A stretch of 64,000 nt of DNA from Methanohalobium evestigatum Z-7303 (GCF_000196655.1 NC_014253.1:1178001-1242000); one strand, 5' to 3'. Shown: positions 28,493-41,726, counted from the first letter of the stretch. Notes: generated by a model from the letters alone, not told the origin. Numbers and translations: made by a program.

Positions 28493-28716
28493 ATACACAG
28501 ACACACCTTTGTTAATGAGTTCTGGAATATCCAATAAGATGTTTTGTTATCTACACAGACACACCTTCATTAACGAGTTCTGGGATATCCAATAAGATGT
28601 TTTGTTATCTACACAGACACACCTTCATTAACGAGTTCTGGGATATCCAATAAGATGTTTTGTTATCTACACAGACACACCTTTGTTAATGAGTTCTGGG
28701 ATATCCAATAAGATCT
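28493..28716 (+). repeat. Origin type 1 repeats, 58-bp direct array
   Basis: Four units with exact 58-bp period (CACAG at 28496, 28554, 28612, 28670), nearly identical, the last truncated. Each contains CAGACACACCTT, then TTAA(C/T)GAGTTCTGG and ATATCCAATAAGAT. Confidence 0.9.
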
Positions 28717-28729
28717 TAAAAATAATAAT

Positions 28730-29460
28730 TCAAAACAAAACGATGATGATTCGAAGAAATAGACATAATTTTTCTATGATTAAGTTGTATCTAGGTTAGA
28801 TTTACTTTAGATTTCTTTTAATTTTTATACATTTTTAATAAATGATTAATGTTTTGAGAAAAAAGAAATTAGAAATGATGAGTATTGAATTGTTTGAGAT
28901 TGAGTTGTTTGAGAAAAAGATTAGAGGTTGAACTCTTGATACAATTGATCTTTTGATTTGATTATTCTATTTTTTTTAATTTTTATATTATTTTTATTTT
29001 TATATTATTTTAATTTTCTATATAATTAGTATATTTTTAATAATATATAAATTTATTCTTCTATAAAACAATTATTTTTTTATTAAAAGTGAAAATTAAT
29101 TAGAAATAATAAAATATATAAATAATGAAATACATAAAAAATCCACATGATTTTCAAAAATAATATAATAATAAAAAGAAAGACAAAAAAATCTAGAGTA
29201 AATAATAAAAAACAACTTACAAAAATAAAAACTTCAAAAACAAAAAAACTCTATTCTAAAAAACCTAACTTGAAATCATCATATCATCATATCAATTCTG
29301 TAACAAAACGTATCAAGAAAATTACACAAATCATTAGAAAACGTCTATATGTATATTATAATGATTAATCTCAATCCGAATTATAATAACAATCAAAAAA
29401 GAAATCGAATATATCATATATTATTATAATAACGAACATCTCAATCCTAACTTTGGTTCA
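28730..29460. other. AT-rich core, candidate DNA unwinding element
   Basis: Over 700 bp of extremely AT-rich DNA, with long A and T runs from 28980 to 29140. It lies between the two inverted repeat arrays. No credible gene is present; a Lys-rich frame at 29147-29368 is a composition effect. Confidence 0.65.
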
Positions 29461-30554: not shown

Positions 30555-30778
30555 TTTAACATTTATCTTAAATCTTTTATCCTAAATCCTTTATCTTAAA
30601 TCCTTTATCTTAAATCTTTATCCTAAACCCTTTATCTTAAATCCTTTATCTTAAATCCTTTATCTTAAATCCTTTATCTTAAATCCTTTATCTTAAATCC
30701 TTTATCTTAAATCCTTTATCTTAAATCCTTTACCTTAAATCCTTTACCTTAAATCTTTTATCCTAAATCCTTTATCTT
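30555..30778 (+). repeat. 14-bp tandem repeat (minisatellite)
   Basis: About fifteen tandem copies of a CCTTTATCTTAAAT unit, with variants such as CCTTTACC and CTTTATCC at the two ends and identical units in the middle. There are no spacers, so it is not CRISPR. It lies 0.5 kb beyond the origin. The rest of 30441-31111 is AT-rich sequence with nothing recognised. Confidence 0.9.
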
Positions 30779-31141
30779 TTCTCATCGCTCCGATATTAGA
30801 ATTAAATCCAATTATATCTTTTTTTTATTATTGGAAAATTATGAAAATTTAGATTAAATATAATAGTTTAAGTGATAAATCTTAAAACTTAAAAGATTTA
30901 ATATAAATCTTAAATGATAAATATTCGAATTTTATTACTTATTTTCTTATTTTATAATTTATAAATGTCTACTTTATGATTTTATAATTTATAACTGTCT
31001 ATTTTCTAATTTTAAGATTTATAAAAGCTTGATTATGGGAAAAATTTATTAATGAAATCATCAATAGGTAATTACAATCTGGATTTGTATCAATTTGGAT
31101 CCAGATATATATAAAAAATAAAAAACCAAGAGAGGGTTTTT

Positions 31142-31339: not shown

Positions 31340-31636
31340 AAAAATGAAGCAAAGAAGCATTTAGGGTCTATAACTTTGATTTGCTTAGTAATTCAATCTT
31401 GAACTGGTTATTGGACTTACGTCTTATGATTGAACTACTTTTTACAAAGTCATAGCATGTCGCTTCTTGCTCCATTGCCGAAAATTGTGGGATAGGTTAG
31501 ACCCTTTCCACAATTCTATTCGTATATATCGAATAGAAATACCCAAACAGTTGTTTGGTTAACCTCTTATTAGGTATAGCTATTATAACTGTTTTTTGGG
31601 TATCGCAACTTCATAAAGATATACTCTAATGGAGGA
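31340..31636 (+). ncRNA. Structured element S copy 1, likely 5' leader of the TPR gene
   Basis: About 300 bp that is over 90% identical to 34160-34462. Stems: AATTGTGG/CCACAATT; CTATTCG/CGAATAG; and a long stem pairing ATACCCAAACAGTT with AACTGTTTTTTGGGTAT, with AACC/GGTT pairing inside its loop. The element ends in TAATGGAGG, the ribosome binding site of the TPR gene, so it would form that gene's 5' untranslated region. There is no conserved frame. It could be a cis-regulatory RNA. Confidence 0.6.
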
Positions 31637-31641
31637 ATATT

Positions 31642-34134
31642 ATAACCTCAAAAAAGAAAAAAACAGATTCAAACATCTATAATAAGGTAAATACTAAAGA
31701 TACCCCAAAGATTGATAACATCTTGTTTGAACTTAATAATAAGTTGCCAGACAAAAGTGTACCATTTGCTGAAAAGCTTGAAGATATTGAGAACGCCCTT
31801 GAGATGGAAAATCTCGATGATGACCTCAAACAAAGACTTTTGTACTTTAAAATAGAACTCTATAAGTCAGCAAATGATTTCCAGACAGCTAACCAAATAG
31901 AAAATTCATTGTCAATGAGTTTTGATGATGAAGCAACATGGTATTATAGAGCATTTATAGCATCCTTAATGGGAAACCATGTAACCTCCCTGGAATATCT
32001 AAATAACATTGTAAAAAATAATGACGAAATGAAGTATTGGTTATTGAAAGCTGCTAACTTAGATTTTATAGGTCATTATAAAGAAGCAGTAGAATGTTGC
32101 AATAAAGCATTGAAATTGAAAAATGACCCAGGAATTCAAATCAAAAAAGGTGAACTGCTCAAAAAACAAGGGTTGTTCAAAAAAGCAAGGATTGCTTATG
32201 GTAAAGCATTGGAAAATGATAACTATAAACATGATATTGAATTGTTAAAGGACTATTCTCATGCTTATCAAATGGAAGGCAAGGTAAATGAAGCTCTTAA
32301 AGTGATCAAGAGAGCTAAAAATCTAAATCTCTTTGACAAAGAAACGCTGCATATGCAAGCAGATATGCTGGCAGAGTCAGGTCATCGTAAAGAAGCTGTC
32401 GAAGTCATTAACATGATACTTGAAATAAATCCTGATGATTTCGAAGCTGCTTTCATGAAACTGGAATTGTTGCTAATCATGAAACGCTATAAGGAAGCTG
32501 AAAATCTTGTCAGTTACATCTTTAATTCAAATCCTGATACAGGTGACCAATGGTTGTACAAAGCAAAAATATTGTCAACCTATGGTTACTATACTGAAGC
32601 AGATGAAGCTATCAATGAAGCAGAGAAATTGAACCCGGTACTTGCAAATATTTCATTAATCAAAGCAAATCATTACTCAAATTTGGGTGAGTACGATAAG
32701 GCTATTGATATATGCAGTAGAGCATTAGAAGTAGATGAGGATGTGAATACATATTCATCTAGATCAGAGGCATATGCCAAAAAAGGTGATCTCAAAAACG
32801 CCTTGAGGGATATAAATAATGCTATAAATTTAAATGATGATGTCATTAATTTTTGGAATCAGAGAGGAGAAATACTTTGGGCCTTGGGTGATTTAAGAGG
32901 AGCTCTTGAATCATTTAGAAAAGCACTGAAAATCGATGACAATGATAGTACTGCTTTGAAACATGGATCTAAACTACTTCACAATTTGGGCGATCACAGT
33001 GAAGCTGTAAATCTTATGGATAAATACCTTTCCAACTATCCAGAAGATGTCGAAATATTAGGGTTAAAGGGAAGTTCCAAAGCAAAGACCGGGAACTGTG
33101 AAGAAGGACTCAAATGGGTTAACAAAGCATTGAAACTAAAAGAAAATTATCCAGATGCCTGGGATATAAAATCAGCAATATATACAGAAATGGGAAAACA
33201 TGAAGCATCACTGGATGCTGCAGAATACGGTTTGTTCTATGACCCAGAGAATCCAGAGCTGATGTACAAAAAAGGCTGCACCTTAATAAATCTGCAAAGG
33301 TACGAAGAGGCATTTGATTGTATAAATCAGGCTTTGGGTAAAAAAGAAGATGTTGATATGTTGGTCAACAAGGCTCGTCTTGAATCCTTACTCGGAAAGA
33401 TAGAAGATGCAGTAAAGACCTATAATCGAGCAATCGAACTGGAACCAAGATACGAAGCATTGAATGCTAAAGTGGCTTGTCTCATAACACTTGAAAGATT
33501 TGAAGAGGCAATGGACATAATCGACCAGGTAGACCCTAATTATTTGAACCGGTTTGAATTTTGGATGAACAAAATTATGTGCTTTATTAAGCTTAACAGG
33601 TATGATGAAGCACTTGAATGCATAGATAATTTCGGCAATAATGTTCCTGATGAAATCAAAGAATATATGTTCCAAACATTATCTGAAACATTAGATACCG
33701 ATAATGTGGATCAAGAAGATGAACCTAAATTGATGCTTTTAAAAGGAGCTATTTTGTTCGAATTTGGTAAAGATGGCGCAGTGGAGGTATTCTACTCTGT
33801 TGCAGAGAAATGGATGGATAGCAATCCGAAAGATGCATTGGAATCATTGAATAGAACCTTATCTATAAACCCCGATGATGTAGATGCATTACGCATGAAA
33901 GCTGATCTCCACTACAATTTGTCTGATTACAAAAAATCCCTGAAAACTATTGATAAAGCTTTGGAGATAGAAGGTGATAATGCTCGGTTGTGGTTGATGA
34001 GAAGTTATGTCCTCGATTCGCTTGGAAAAACAAGTGATGCGTTAGAATCACTTGAAAAAGCTCATAACCTTTCACCGGATGACAATGACGTCTTGAATTA
34101 CAAGATAATCGTGGAGGCTAAAATAGGACAGTGA
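31642..34134 (+). CDS. TPR-repeat protein 1 (non-canonical start)
   Basis: About 830 residues, almost all TPR repeats of ~34 residues, more than 18 units (e.g. ALKLKNDPGIQIKKGELLKK, YTEADEAINEAEKLNP, YEEAFDCINQALGKK). It is a scaffold for protein contacts and has no enzyme motif. After GGAGG 31631-31635 the frame runs AAT ATT ATA ACC TCA AAA AAG; no ATG, GTG or TTG other than GTA/ATT-like codons occurs until TTG 31723. ATA 31642 lies 6 nt from the ribosome binding site and is the best start. The lead is Lys/Asn/Thr-rich. It is related to the TPR genes at 35.5 and 36.4 kb. Confidence 0.8.
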   Translation: MTSKKKKTDSNIYNKVNTKDTPKIDNILFELNNKLPDKSVPFAEKLEDIENALEMENLDDDLKQRLLYFKIELYKSANDFQTANQIENSLSMSFDDEATWYYRAFIASLMGNHVTSLEYLNNIVKNNDEMKYWLLKAANLDFIGHYKEAVECCNKALKLKNDPGIQIKKGELLKKQGLFKKARIAYGKALENDNYKHDIELLKDYSHAYQMEGKVNEALKVIKRAKNLNLFDKETLHMQADMLAESGHRKEAVEVINMILEINPDDFEAAFMKLELLLIMKRYKEAENLVSYIFNSNPDTGDQWLYKAKILSTYGYYTEADEAINEAEKLNPVLANISLIKANHYSNLGEYDKAIDICSRALEVDEDVNTYSSRSEAYAKKGDLKNALRDINNAINLNDDVINFWNQRGEILWALGDLRGALESFRKALKIDDNDSTALKHGSKLLHNLGDHSEAVNLMDKYLSNYPEDVEILGLKGSSKAKTGNCEEGLKWVNKALKLKENYPDAWDIKSAIYTEMGKHEASLDAAEYGLFYDPENPELMYKKGCTLINLQRYEEAFDCINQALGKKEDVDMLVNKARLESLLGKIEDAVKTYNRAIELEPRYEALNAKVACLITLERFEEAMDIIDQVDPNYLNRFEFWMNKIMCFIKLNRYDEALECIDNFGNNVPDEIKEYMFQTLSETLDTDNVDQEDEPKLMLLKGAILFEFGKDGAVEVFYSVAEKWMDSNPKDALESLNRTLSINPDDVDALRMKADLHYNLSDYKKSLKTIDKALEIEGDNARLWLMRSYVLDSLGKTSDALESLEKAHNLSPDDNDVLNYKIIVEAKIGQ

Positions 34135-34159
34135 TATCAGAGCGTCTGAATAATAGTTG

Positions 34160-34462
34160 TAAAAATGAAGCTAAGAAGCTTTTAGAATCTATAACTTTGA
34201 TTTGCTTAGTAGTTCAATCTTGGACAGGGTATTGGATTTATGTCTTATGATTGAACTACTTTTTACAAAGTCATAGCATGTCGCTTCTTGCTCCATTGCC
34301 GAAAATTGTGGAATAGGTTAGACCCTTTCCACAATTCTATTCGTATATATCGAATAGGAAATACCCAAAACAGTTGTTTTGGTTAACCTACTGTTAGGTA
34401 TAGCTGCTATAACTGTTTTTGGGTATTTCAACTTGCTAAATGCAGAATATACACTAATGGAG
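34160..34462 (+). ncRNA. Structured element S copy 2
   Basis: Second copy of 31340-31636. Stems: AATTGTGGAA (34304-34313)/TTCCACAATT (34327-34336); CTATTCG (34337-34343)/CGAATAG (34351-34357); and AATACCCAAAACAGTT (34360-34375) with AACTGTTTTTGGGTATT (34411-34427). It ends CTAATGGAGATATTAA, but no TPR gene follows, so either the gene was lost or the element acts on its own. Confidence 0.6.
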
Positions 34463-34642
34463 ATATTAATATAATATAGATAAAAATGTTTGAAAAGTTC
34501 TATAGATTTCAAATAGCTAACATGCTCTTGAAAAGATCAATTCGGTCTTAAATTGTTAATAAAATCCTCATAAAACTTGGATATCGAATACTTGGGTACT
34601 GGATATCAGGTCTCCATATATAGTTTTTATATGGATTTTCAA

Positions 34643-34792
34643 TTTCAATGTGTCATGTCACACTGAAAATTGAAGTAATCAGGTTATTATAAGGTTTTAA
34701 ATTTTAAATGTGTGATGTCACACTGAAAATTAGTAATATTATCATCTAATATTACCTTATTAGCCAAAATAAGACCGTTAATCTTATAAATT
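34643..34792 (+). promoter_or_regulatory. Two inverted repeats plus TATA box
   Basis: TTTCAATGTG-TCATGT-CACACTGAAA (34643-34668) and AAATGTG-TGATGT-CACACT (34706-34724), then AAGACCGTTAATCTTATAAA (TATA 34783-34790). The same design recurs near 37.4-37.55 kb. A likely promoter with operator-type sites for the gene at 35.0 kb. The remaining gap to 34981 includes a short frame 34912-34962 that I do not regard as a gene. Confidence 0.55.
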
Positions 34793-34981
34793 CAGAAATA
34801 ATTTACGCAAATAAGTGTATTAATTACACCTAAAATATATTAAAAAATGAAAAACAGAGGTGAAAAAAGTATAATCCACAGTTGTTTACTGTCAATCATA
34901 CACCTAAAATGGTGTGTTTGCCAGAACAAGCAAAAGAAATTGGCCATAAACAAAAATAAGTTTCACAAAGGAACTTAGCAG

Positions 34982-35317
34982 TTGGATTGTATAATCACCA
35001 TGATGGAAATAAAAAATGGAAAACGTTACAACACGGAAACCGCAACAGAACTTGCAGAATACAAAAACATGGGTGACACAAGTAATGTGTTCTATATGAG
35101 GGAGACCCTCTATAAAACACCCAAAGGCAACTACTTCATAGTAGGTTTCGGTAGAGGTATGAGTAAATACGGAATACGTCCCGGTCCTGGACCCGGTTGT
35201 ATCGAAGATACAAAGCTTATACCACTAACACAAGCTGAAGCTTTCGCATGGTGTGAGAAAACAGGCAACTATGACGTCATCGAAAAAGAATTCAATGACG
35301 TCCTTGAAGATGCCTGA
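34982..35317 (+). CDS. Small hypothetical protein
   Basis: 111 residues from TTG 34982 or 104-105 from ATG 35000/35003. The core reads IKNGKRYNTETATELAEYKN, YMRETLYKTPKGNYFIVGFG, then LIPLTQAEAFAWCEKTG, a pattern I associate with a small uncharacterised family in accessory regions; no function known. AAAGGAAC lies about 8 nt before the TTG, which favours it slightly. The 5' UTR is about 170 nt from the TATA box at 34783. A strong terminator follows. Confidence 0.75.
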   Translation: MDCIITMMEIKNGKRYNTETATELAEYKNMGDTSNVFYMRETLYKTPKGNYFIVGFGRGMSKYGIRPGPGPGCIEDTKLIPLTQAEAFAWCEKTGNYDVIEKEFNDVLEDA

Positions 35318-35335
35318 AACATAGAATAGCCAGCA

Positions 35336-35393
35336 ACTATAGAAGGTAAATGAAACCGGATAATACTACTATAATTTTTACCTTCTATAGTTT
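35336..35393 (+). terminator. Long-stem hairpin after the hypothetical gene
   Basis: ACTATAGAAGGTAAA pairs perfectly with TTTACCTTCTATAGT over 15 bp, with a ~26-nt loop. T-rich sequence follows. Confidence 0.6.
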
Positions 35394-35454
35394 CTACTTT
35401 CGAATAATAAAACATGGATTATAAAAAATAAACGAAAAAATTAGAGGTGTAATT

Positions 35455-36240
35455 ATTTCAGAAAAAACGAAAAATAATAGCAAACTTTCAAACTTAGAAA
35501 ACAAAAACAAACCCAGTTTGTTAATAGGAACAGAATACGAAGATACACAAGTAACGGATATAAGTACAATCAGAGCAAAGGCCCATATACAGCACCCATT
35601 CTTTATACAGTCTATTAGTGCAAACCCATTTGGTGAATTTCAATGGTTAGAAGATGGTCTTGCTTTCGTTAATGAGGAAGAACTTGAGTATGAACCATAT
35701 AACATTGAATCATTGTACAAGAAGATGGTAACTCTCGAATTACTTGGACGTCCTGATGAAGCCGATGAAATCGCCGAACTTATAATAGAACTGGGTACTA
35801 TGAACCGCCGGTTCTTGATGTTCAAAGCAGAAGTATTGTCGAGTAAAGGACGATATGAAGATGCAGTTGAATTGTTCGAAGAAGCTGAAAAACGTGATTC
35901 TCCTGATGATGCTCCCTTGGCAAAAGCGGTCCATCATATACGCTATGGTGAACCTGAGCAAGCTATCGAAGTTTGTAATGATTTGTTGAAGTGGCATCAG
36001 TGTCATGAGGTGTACTATGTCAGAGCATACGTTTATGCTGTAATAGGAAACCTTGAACAGGCTCTGGAAGATATAGATACTGCACTCTATATCAGGGATG
36101 AACTCTGTAACAGCTGGAACTTCAGAGGACTGATAATGGAAAAGATGGGTGACAGAAAGGGAGCAGTAGAATCTTTCAAATATGCTCTAGGAATTGATTC
36201 CGAAAATACAATGGCAACTAGTCATTTAGCAAAATTATGA
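35455..36240 (+). CDS. TPR-repeat protein 2 (non-canonical start)
   Basis: About 261 residues. A Lys/Asn-rich lead is followed by QVTDISTIRAKAHIQHP and five TPR-like units (YKKMVTLELLGRPDEADEIA, YEDAVELFEEAEKRD, PEQAIEVCNDLLKW, LEQALEDIDTALYI, RKGAVESFKYALGID). No ATG, GTG or TTG is in frame between TAA 35422 and TTG 35518, which would cut off the lead. AGAGGTG 35443-35449 is followed 5 nt later by ATT 35455. About 60% similar by eye to the next gene, so a tandem duplication. Confidence 0.8.
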   Translation: MSEKTKNNSKLSNLENKNKPSLLIGTEYEDTQVTDISTIRAKAHIQHPFFIQSISANPFGEFQWLEDGLAFVNEEELEYEPYNIESLYKKMVTLELLGRPDEADEIAELIIELGTMNRRFLMFKAEVLSSKGRYEDAVELFEEAEKRDSPDDAPLAKAVHHIRYGEPEQAIEVCNDLLKWHQCHEVYYVRAYVYAVIGNLEQALEDIDTALYIRDELCNSWNFRGLIMEKMGDRKGAVESFKYALGIDSENTMATSHLAKL

Positions 36241-36249
36241 TTAACATTG

Positions 36250-36335
36250 AAGCGAAGGAGTATTTTGAATATACATCTCAACTCCTTCATAGTAGATATG
36301 TGGAACAGGTTCTATCACCTGTTCTACATTTTATC
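36250..36335 (+). terminator. Double hairpin after TPR gene 2
   Basis: GAAGGAGT/ACTCCTTC, then TGGAACAGGT/ACCTGTTCTACA around TCTATC, followed by TTTTAT. Confidence 0.6.
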
Positions 36336-36379
36336 TATCTAAATAATCTGGATTGAAAAACGAATATGGAGGAATTAAT

Positions 36380-37162
36380 ATAAAAAAACACGAAATGTTG
36401 AAAAACAAAAAACAGACCGATCCAAGGATAGAAAACGACAAATCCAATTTGATATCAAGAATAGTTAAAGAAGACCGACAGGTAACCCATATAAGTTCAA
36501 TAAGAGTAAAAGCCCATTTATACAATTCAAAGTATGAACAACGTCCAGGAGAAGCAATTTTCAATATGTTTCAATTGTTAGAAGAAGGTATTGAAACCGC
36601 TGATGAGGAACTTGAGTCAGACCCAAATAACATTGAAACATTGTACAGGAAAATGACAAATCTTGAATTACTTGAACGCCTAGATGAAGCTGATAAAGTT
36701 GCAGAAGATATACTGTCTCTGAATCCTAAAGACCGCCGGCAAATGATGCTCAAAGCAGATGTGTTGTCGGGTAAAGGCCAGTACAATGATGCAGTTGAAC
36801 TGTTCAAAGAAGCTGAAAAGATGAAATCCTATGCTGATGCTCCTTTGGCAAAAGTGGTTCATCATCTACGTTATGGCGAACATGACCAGGCACTGGAAAT
36901 CTGCAACAATCTTTTGGAAATTGAACAGAATCCTAAAGTATACTATGTCAGAGCATACATTTATACTGTAATCGGAAACTTTGAACAGGCGTTAGAAAAC
37001 ATAAATTCTGCAATCAATTTCAGAGATGGGATCAGTAGCTACTGGAACCTTAAAGGATTGATACTGGAAAATATGGGATACAGGTTGGAAGCAAAAGGAT
37101 GTTTCATGTACACCAAGGGAGTAGATGTTGACAATTCAATGGCAGGTATACATCTAATTTAA
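36380..37162 (+). CDS. TPR-repeat protein 3 (non-canonical start)
   Basis: About 260 residues, paralogous to the previous gene: QVTHISSIRVKAHLYN lead, then TPR units (YRKMTNLELLERLDEADKVA, YNDAVELFKEAEKM, HDQALEICNNLLEI, FEQALENINSAINF). GGAGG lies at 36368-36372. ATA 36380 is 7 nt downstream and gives a Lys-rich lead like TPR 2; ATG 36395 is 22 nt away, and TTG 36353 is upstream of the ribosome binding site. ATA is therefore preferred, with ATG 36395 as the conservative alternative. Confidence 0.8.
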   Translation: MKKHEMLKNKKQTDPRIENDKSNLISRIVKEDRQVTHISSIRVKAHLYNSKYEQRPGEAIFNMFQLLEEGIETADEELESDPNNIETLYRKMTNLELLERLDEADKVAEDILSLNPKDRRQMMLKADVLSGKGQYNDAVELFKEAEKMKSYADAPLAKVVHHLRYGEHDQALEICNNLLEIEQNPKVYYVRAYIYTVIGNFEQALENINSAINFRDGISSYWNLKGLILENMGYRLEAKGCFMYTKGVDVDNSMAGIHLI

Positions 37163-40176: not shown

Positions 40177-40301
40177 ATATGTGGCTACTATCCAGATAGA
40201 AAATATTTTTATAAAAGCAAAATTTTATTAATTGCTATTGGTTAAAACTAAGTGAGTCAATATTACCATTATTATGATGAAAAAGTAGAGGAGATGAAAC
40301 T

Positions 40302-41726
40302 ATTAAATCTATTATTCTTGCAGGTGGTTCAGGGACGCGTCTATGGCCACTTAGTCGTGAACAGTATCCAAAGCAGTTCTTAAAACTGGGTGAAACATCG
40401 CTATTTCAGGATACTGTTATTAGATGTTTTAAAGTATCAGATATATCCGAAATCTTTGTTGTAACTAAAAAATCCCAAAAATTTTTTGTATTGGGCCAGA
40501 TTAATGAGCTAGGTTATGAGATCCCTGAAGATAATTTGTTGATAGAACCTGAAGGTAAAAATACACTCCCTGCAATCTATTATGGGGCTCAGGAGATTGA
40601 GAGAAAGTTTGGAAAATCAATTGTTGGAGTATTCCCTTCAGACCATATATTGGACGATGGAGCGATGCAGACAATTTCAGATGTACAGGTATTAACTTCA
40701 GATTATCTTTTAACTTTTGGAATTGTTCCAGATTCACCACAGACCGGTTATGGGTACATAAAACCAGAAGAAGAAATCGATTCTAGAGTTTCTGGATTCA
40801 GAGTTTCTGAATTTAGAGAAAAACCTGATATAGAATACGCTCAACGTTACATGAATGAGGGATGCCTCTGGAATAGTGGTATATTTTTGTTCGACACAGC
40901 TGTGTTCTTTGATGAAGTGATAAAACATGCTCCAGAAATATCCGATACATTCGAATCAAATATTGATTTAGAGGTTATTTATCAACAGGTTCCTTCGGTA
41001 TCTATTGATTATGAAATAATGGAAAAATCAAATAAAGTTGCTGTTGTTAAACTCAACAAAAAATGGAATGATTTAGGTGATTTCAACTCAATATATAATG
41101 AGTTTGAAAAGGATTACAAAGGTAATGTGGTTTATGAATGTGATGATTTTTCAATTGGTTCAACTGATAATCTAATATATTCTGAAAAGAACAAAGCTGT
41201 TTCATTAATCGATGTCAATAACATGGTTGTTGTGGATACTTCGGACGCACTGCTTGTCTGCCCTAAAGAGAGCAGTCAGAAAGTAAAAGAGATTGTAAAT
41301 GGGTTAAAGGAAAGAAATGATGAAAGAGCTTATCTTCACAAATATGTTTACCGTCCTTGGGGTTCATATACTGTAATGGAATCATCTGAAACGCATAAAA
41401 TCAAAAATATAACTGTGATACCGCAGAAATCTCTGAGCATGCAGCTTCACCACCACCGCAGTGAACATTGGGTAGTGGTAAAAGGAATGGCATCTGTAAA
41501 GGTCGATGGTCAGGAATATTTTTTAAGACAGGGTGAGAGTACATTTATTAGGGCAGGTGTAAAACATCGGCTATCAAATCCTGGTAAAGTGCCGCTTGAA
41601 ATCATCGAAGTACAGCTTGGAGAATATGTGGGAGAAGATGATATCGTCCGGTTTGATGATGATTACGGAAGGGAAAATGTAACTTACCCAAATTTTAGTA
41701 TAAATAGGAAAAATGTACATAATTAA
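40302..41726 (+). CDS. manC: Mannose-1-phosphate guanylyltransferase (ManC/AlgA type II), ATT start
   Basis: 475 residues. Makes GDP-mannose for glycan assembly. From ATT 40302 the frame reads (M)KSIILAGGSGTRLWPLSREQ, the nucleotidyltransferase signature that begins essentially every ManC/AlgA. The next canonical start, TTG 40491, would delete that site. TGA 40278 closes the frame upstream, and no ATG, GTG or TTG lies between. GAGGAGAT ends 7-8 nt before the ATT. The pyrophosphorylase domain spans 1-270 (FREKPD, GCLWNSGIFLFD). The C-terminal cupin with VYRPWGSYTVME and QLHHHRSEHWVVVKG is the phosphomannose-isomerase-type domain of bifunctional enzymes. Confidence 0.9.
   Translation: MKSIILAGGSGTRLWPLSREQYPKQFLKLGETSLFQDTVIRCFKVSDISEIFVVTKKSQKFFVLGQINELGYEIPEDNLLIEPEGKNTLPAIYYGAQEIERKFGKSIVGVFPSDHILDDGAMQTISDVQVLTSDYLLTFGIVPDSPQTGYGYIKPEEEIDSRVSGFRVSEFREKPDIEYAQRYMNEGCLWNSGIFLFDTAVFFDEVIKHAPEISDTFESNIDLEVIYQQVPSVSIDYEIMEKSNKVAVVKLNKKWNDLGDFNSIYNEFEKDYKGNVVYECDDFSIGSTDNLIYSEKNKAVSLIDVNNMVVVDTSDALLVCPKESSQKVKEIVNGLKERNDERAYLHKYVYRPWGSYTVMESSETHKIKNITVIPQKSLSMQLHHHRSEHWVVVKGMASVKVDGQEYFLRQGESTFIRAGVKHRLSNPGKVPLEIIEVQLGEYVGEDDIVRFDDDYGRENVTYPNFSINRKNVHN

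Follow-up and report, generated by a model that had tools for sequence, protein, structure and literature searches.

The window analysed here is a stretch of 64,000 nucleotides (G000:C1:1178001-1242000) from Methanohalobium evestigatum Z-7303 (Methanosarcinaceae), an archaeal genome of 2,406,232 bases in two contigs, and positions below refer to this window unless another record is named. Its plus strand carries, in a row, three genes that we call TPR1 (31642-34134, 830 codons from ATA to stop, with TPR repeats throughout), TPR2 (35455-36240, 261 codons from ATT to stop) and TPR3 (36380-37162, 260 codons from ATA to stop, with an alternative ATG at 36395). On the same strand lies manC (mannose-1-phosphate guanylyltransferase / mannose-6-phosphate isomerase; 40302-41726, 474 codons from ATT). 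All four have a Shine-Dalgarno sequence at start-codon spacing: GGAGG at 31631-31635, 6 nt from the ATA of TPR1; AGAGGTG at 35443-35449, 5 nt from the ATT of TPR2; GGAGG at 36368-36372, 7 nt from the ATA of TPR3; and GAGGAGATGA at 40288-40297 (+) for manC. Rfam recognises no RNA element close to these starts.

Upstream of TPR1 is a leader (31340-31600, +) with a second copy at 34161-34423; the copies are 92-94% identical, and the genome holds no others. Behind the second copy, at 34457-34496 (+), lies what remains of another start region of TPR type, ATGGAGATATTAATATAATATAG, which has no long frame and belongs to repeat family D15. Taken together, the leader copy and the broken start region (34161-34496) look like a fourth paralogue that has decayed. 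The window holds other repeats as well. Two tandem repeats, an array of 14-nt units, TTTATCTTAAATCC, and a repeat of 58 nt, lie in the non-coding stretch before TPR1 (30562-30790 and 28494-28775). A near-palindromic motif, CAATGTGTCATGTCACA, occurs in 8 copies with at most 2 mismatches, against 0.18 expected (15299, 20241, 25212, 34646, 34706, 37410, 37471 and 38442). Several of these are paired about 60 nt apart between genes, and the motif may be an operator or belong to a mobile repeat.

The initial annotation placed ATA, ATT and ATA 5-7 nt behind the Shine-Dalgarno sequences of the three TPR genes, and this is confirmed base for base. The start region of TPR1 reads TAA TGGAGG AATATT ATA, with the ATA at 31642, and an upstream start is ruled out because of the in-frame TAA at 31627-31629. 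The ATT at 31639 is in frame too, yet it is just 3 nt from the GGAGG. The first in-frame canonical start is the TTG at 31723, 81 nt downstream, with only TGAT ahead of it. The TPR2 region reads AGAGGTG TAATT ATT, with the ATT at 35455; its first canonical start is the TTG at 35518, which lies exactly 63 nt on, as had been reported, and lacks a Shine-Dalgarno. The TPR3 region reads GGAGG AATTAAT ATA, with the ATA at 36380. It was also right that none of the three has a canonical start at the spacing set by its Shine-Dalgarno; the in-frame ATG of TPR3 at 36395 is 15 nt past the ATA and 22 nt from the GGAGG. Because of this ATG and of an in-frame TTG at 36353, which is 27 nt upstream of the ATA and also upstream of the Shine-Dalgarno, TPR3 is the weakest case of the three, and it could still start at ATG 36395. 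TPR1 and TPR2 have no usable in-frame canonical start and the codon use of their leads is coding-like. We consider starts at AUH (AUA, AUU or AUC) to be well supported for both. The leads of TPR2 and TPR3 are nearly equal in length up to the AUH codon. With a per-codon background of about 7%, the chance of finding AUH in three of three TPR genes is about 3e-4, a figure to be taken as a guide only since the window is not a random one.

A search of 111 genomes of the family turned up no orthologues of the TPR genes, just generic TPR matches at an identity of about 35% or below. For want of close relatives of these genes, the idea was examined on conserved genes, among them manC, which the initial annotation had cited alongside the TPR genes. 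Here GAGGAG lies at 40288-40293 and the ATT at 40302, in the frame ...AGA GGA GAT GAA ACT ATT AAA TCT ATT ATT CTT GCA GGT GGT TCA GG, which gives (I)KSIILAGGSG. The first canonical start, the TTG at 40491, would remove the nucleotide-binding motif LAGGSGTR. The start column across 54 distinct archaeal contexts holds ATA 29 times, ATT 11, ATC 3, ATG 10 and GTT once, so ATH accounts for 43 of 54; across 29 genomes of the family it holds ATA 18 times, ATT 5, ATC 3, ATG 2 and GTT once. These loci are the best-scoring ones rather than a random draw, and related genomes are not independent. The ATH contexts come from the Methanosarcinaceae and from Methanoperedens (ANME-2d), where named records of Candidatus Methanoperedens have ATA or ATT at the column. 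ATG stands at the identical column in the Methanomicrobiales and a small number of relatives, the records being those of Methanomicrobium mobile, a Methanospirillum MAG, Methanococcoides seepicolus and the ANME-2 MAG B4-08. The single context with GTT has an ATT ahead of it at good Shine-Dalgarno spacing.

Conservation of the ManC protein starts at the AUH codon. At each codon from -8 to -1 no residue is shared by more than 38% of the 54 contexts, whereas from codon 0 onwards the most frequent one accounts for 79-100%. Between the upstream stop and codon +5, 19 of the 54 contexts have no usable in-frame ATG, GTG or TTG. Many Methanosarcina genes are ambiguous, having an in-frame ATG that abuts the GGAG.

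An unbiased comparison covered 330 orthologue pairs, taking 862 kb from M. evestigatum (38% of the chromosome) and 1.6 Mb from another member of the family (64% of this second genome), with ORFs chosen by codon use. An earlier screen that admitted every ORF gave mainly shadow frames and was dropped. The comparison yielded two more genes with an AUH start, those for a CDP-alcohol phosphatidyltransferase and for cbiG, and with manC included an AUH start appears in both genomes in 3 of the 330 pairs, about 1%. The start column of the phosphatidyltransferase holds ATT 11 times, ATG 10 and ATA 6 in 27 contexts, 12 of which have no usable canonical start; the next one would delete a conserved N-terminal segment. 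In two genomes (loci L231 and L236) an in-frame stop lies two codons before the ATT, which leaves almost no other choice of start. Thus AUH is found where relatives carry AUG both in manC and in the phosphatidyltransferase. An internal isoleucine would not alternate with methionine at one column, nor would ATT serve as an ordinary start. As read from these alignments, an AUH start for the two genes is nearly compelled. In cbiG all 26 distinct contexts have ATA, behind GGAGGTC and 7 nt after GGAGGT, and 25 of the 26 have no canonical start. This ATA falls where the upstream gene, read in another frame, has its conserved 3' end, and its invariance is partly due to the overlap.

Counting codons 5-8 nt behind a strong Shine-Dalgarno, where the first canonical start is at least 12 codons away, and comparing them with control spacings shows more AT[ACT] than chance would give. 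Over the 862 kb sampled from M. evestigatum, AT[ACT] accounts for 7 of 28 codons against 11 of 158 at control spacings (Fisher p = 0.008); the second genome gives 9 of 50 against 21 of 265 (p = 0.03). Both p values are modest. The seven cases in M. evestigatum are cbiG, TPR1, TPR2, manC, a HisKA_2 kinase, a large protein of 1290 codons whose signal-peptide-like N-terminus begins at GGAGG-N7-ATA, and a short doubtful frame. Plain codon counts after Shine-Dalgarno-like 6-mers in all frames were dropped because internal sites swamped the signal. The second genome holds further candidates with a Shine-Dalgarno and ATA, ATT or ATC at G022 C1:36544-38958, 120064-121482, 121448-122128, 126342-126854 and 361206-362552: an MMPL transporter, a CxxCH-rich (cytochrome-like) protein, an FMN reductase, a rubrerythrin and a radical SAM protein resembling lysine aminomutase.

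A few other genes may use still other codons. A corrinoid (B12-binding) protein of the second genome (L119:9267-9941; G022 C1:49267-49941) has GGAGGTTGTAAC followed by ACG, a possible start, and no ATG, GTG or TTG until 46 codons past it. A SepSecS-like / class-V aminotransferase protein on the minus strand (L130:2958-4178; G022 C1:262958-264178) has AGGAGG with CTG at start spacing and its first canonical start 27 codons past the CTG. Two orthologous small proteins (G000 C1:387793-388179 and G022 C1:797416-797772) both have CTG, behind GAGGAATTAAT or CGAGGAATTAAT, at their first conserved residues (LANYxSNMRK), possibly a conserved CUG start, with an ATG 7 codons on. Besides the three pairs with AUH starts, one more of the 330 may start at CTG.

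We think it likely, judging from these comparisons, that intact genes making up about 1% of the total are initiated at near-cognate AUH codons under the lead of a Shine-Dalgarno. TPR1-3 and manC would be such genes. A strong Shine-Dalgarno 5-8 nt upstream would bring the AUH codon into the P site, where the ordinary initiator tRNA (anticodon CAU) would pair with the A and the U and leave the third base mismatched. Methionine would most likely still be inserted, and efficiency would presumably fall below that of AUG. We infer that the TPR genes behave like manC and start at AUH. The use of AUH would be common to manC, the phosphatidyltransferase and probably cbiG across the family, and in manC would extend to Methanoperedens. 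The initial annotation's suggestion that the genome or region may really make use of near-cognate initiation draws support from the start columns of manC and the phosphatidyltransferase. The comparison also widens it beyond the region: the property is common to the Methanosarcinaceae and, for manC, reaches Methanoperedens. The machinery itself looks normal. A change in the initiator tRNA or in aIF1, which the initial annotation had raised, is not borne out: a search for an altered initiator tRNA or an extra aIF1 found neither, the anticodon arm, GGGCTCATAACCC, being normal and the tRNA present in one copy here, and aIF1 being an ordinary single-copy gene. To our knowledge archaea have no IF3. 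Because no special factor was found, the tolerance would most likely lie in the ordinary machinery.

The alternation of AUH with AUG among relatives fits such tolerance, while the retention of AUH across genera, at columns where GUG and UUG are nearly absent, hints at selection. This raises the idea that AUH starts are a regulatory device repressed by a fidelity factor such as aIF1, which would refine the preferred reading rather than exclude it. AUH has been kept in manC across genera though one or two base changes would give a canonical start. In Sulfolobus aIF1 favours discrimination against non-canonical starts (PMC6237735), and the conserved GTC start of Streptomyces sigR is repressed by IF3 (PMC5472188). 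Against this, the alternation in manC and the phosphatidyltransferase fits tolerance equally well, and aIF1 is a single copy. We regard regulation as a rather doubtful extension of AUH initiation.

It could be argued instead that the TPR genes are decaying, that their start codons were lost by mutation, and that manC is a separate oddity. The TPR genes are unique to this genome, the region at 34457 is a decayed start of the same type, and the comparison of TPR2 with TPR3 (dS 0.64, dN 0.37, dN/dS about 0.58) indicates only moderate constraint. However, TPR2 and TPR3 differ by no stop or frameshift, and all three TPR frames are intact over about 1350 codons despite 674 possible single-base changes (about 5.5%) that would create a stop. 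These are not the marks of pseudogenes. Decay that took just the third base of the start codon from each of the three genes, and spared the Shine-Dalgarno and its spacing, would have followed an unlikely path, and the ATH start of manC is conserved in at least two families. We find decay improbable.

We give equally little credence to the idea that these genes start at canonical codons up- or downstream that lack a Shine-Dalgarno, such as TTG 31723, TTG 35518 and ATG 36395. That ATG is only 15 nt past the ATA of TPR3, and UUG is a frequent start here (27 of 108 strong-Shine-Dalgarno starts). But none of the three codons has a Shine-Dalgarno, those that are present point at AUH, and moving to the next canonical start costs manC its nucleotide-binding motif and the phosphatidyltransferase its conserved N-terminal segment. 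The initial annotation had left open that downstream starts or decay could undo its idea; both fail for these two genes, many genomes having no usable canonical start, and for the TPR genes the argument is indirect. Translational coupling, in which ribosomes ending an upstream gene reinitiate at a nearby weak AUH or shift frame into it, would suit cbiG, which overlaps its upstream gene, and the phosphatidyltransferase of L231 and L236, whose start probably does too as the sequence reads, but it is very unlikely as a general account given the long non-coding stretch ahead of TPR1, the 126 nt between manC in the window and the preceding gene, and the terminator-like hairpin ahead of TPR3, which starts 140 nt beyond the end of TPR2.

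Near-cognate AUH initiation therefore looks like a real and overlooked feature of protein synthesis in this group of archaea rather than gene decay. If about 1% of the genes in the order start this way, then N-termini are misannotated and some intact genes will be taken for pseudogenes. The order includes the main genetic models for methanogens as well as nitrate-dependent methane oxidisers. If true, it also offers a natural gene set in which to study the selection of start codons by aIF1 and aIF2. A bolder claim would be that ribosomes of the Methanosarcinales use AUA, AUU and AUC as regular low-level starts in conserved genes including manC, the phosphatidyltransferase and cbiG, with an output that depends on fidelity factors. 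We put this forward as a tentative possibility.

The archaeal literature that we found, so far as its accessible parts go, admits only AUG, GUG and UUG as starts, and we found no report of AUA, AUU or AUC starts in the Methanosarcinales in the open-access literature. A review of archaeal initiation gives AUG, GUG and UUG (PMC7531240), and Ribo-seq of unannotated small ORFs in M. mazei gives ATG, TTG, GTG and 5% CTG (PMC11456600), as far as the sections available to us go. Initiation in those accounts resembles what we describe in being led by a Shine-Dalgarno and in the common use of UUG and GUG; it differs in that AUA, AUU and AUC go unmentioned in the same sections of both. Closer parallels come from the Bacteria. 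IF3 represses its own gene through a non-canonical infC start, AUU in E. coli and AUC in Streptomyces (PMC5472188). A conserved AUH start codon is common to infC and to our genes, but infC is a single, bacterial, autoregulated translation-factor gene, whereas ours are archaeal metabolic and TPR genes. The sigR gene of Streptomyces has GTC in 32 of 34 cases and GTT in 2, behind a strong AGGAGGTG Shine-Dalgarno (PMC5472188). It shares with our genes a clade-conserved non-canonical start and a strong Shine-Dalgarno, and differs in being one regulatory gene with a non-AUN codon that was tested by experiment, where ours are known from sequence. Together, infC and sigR show that conservation of non-canonical starts and their control by initiation factors are both possible.
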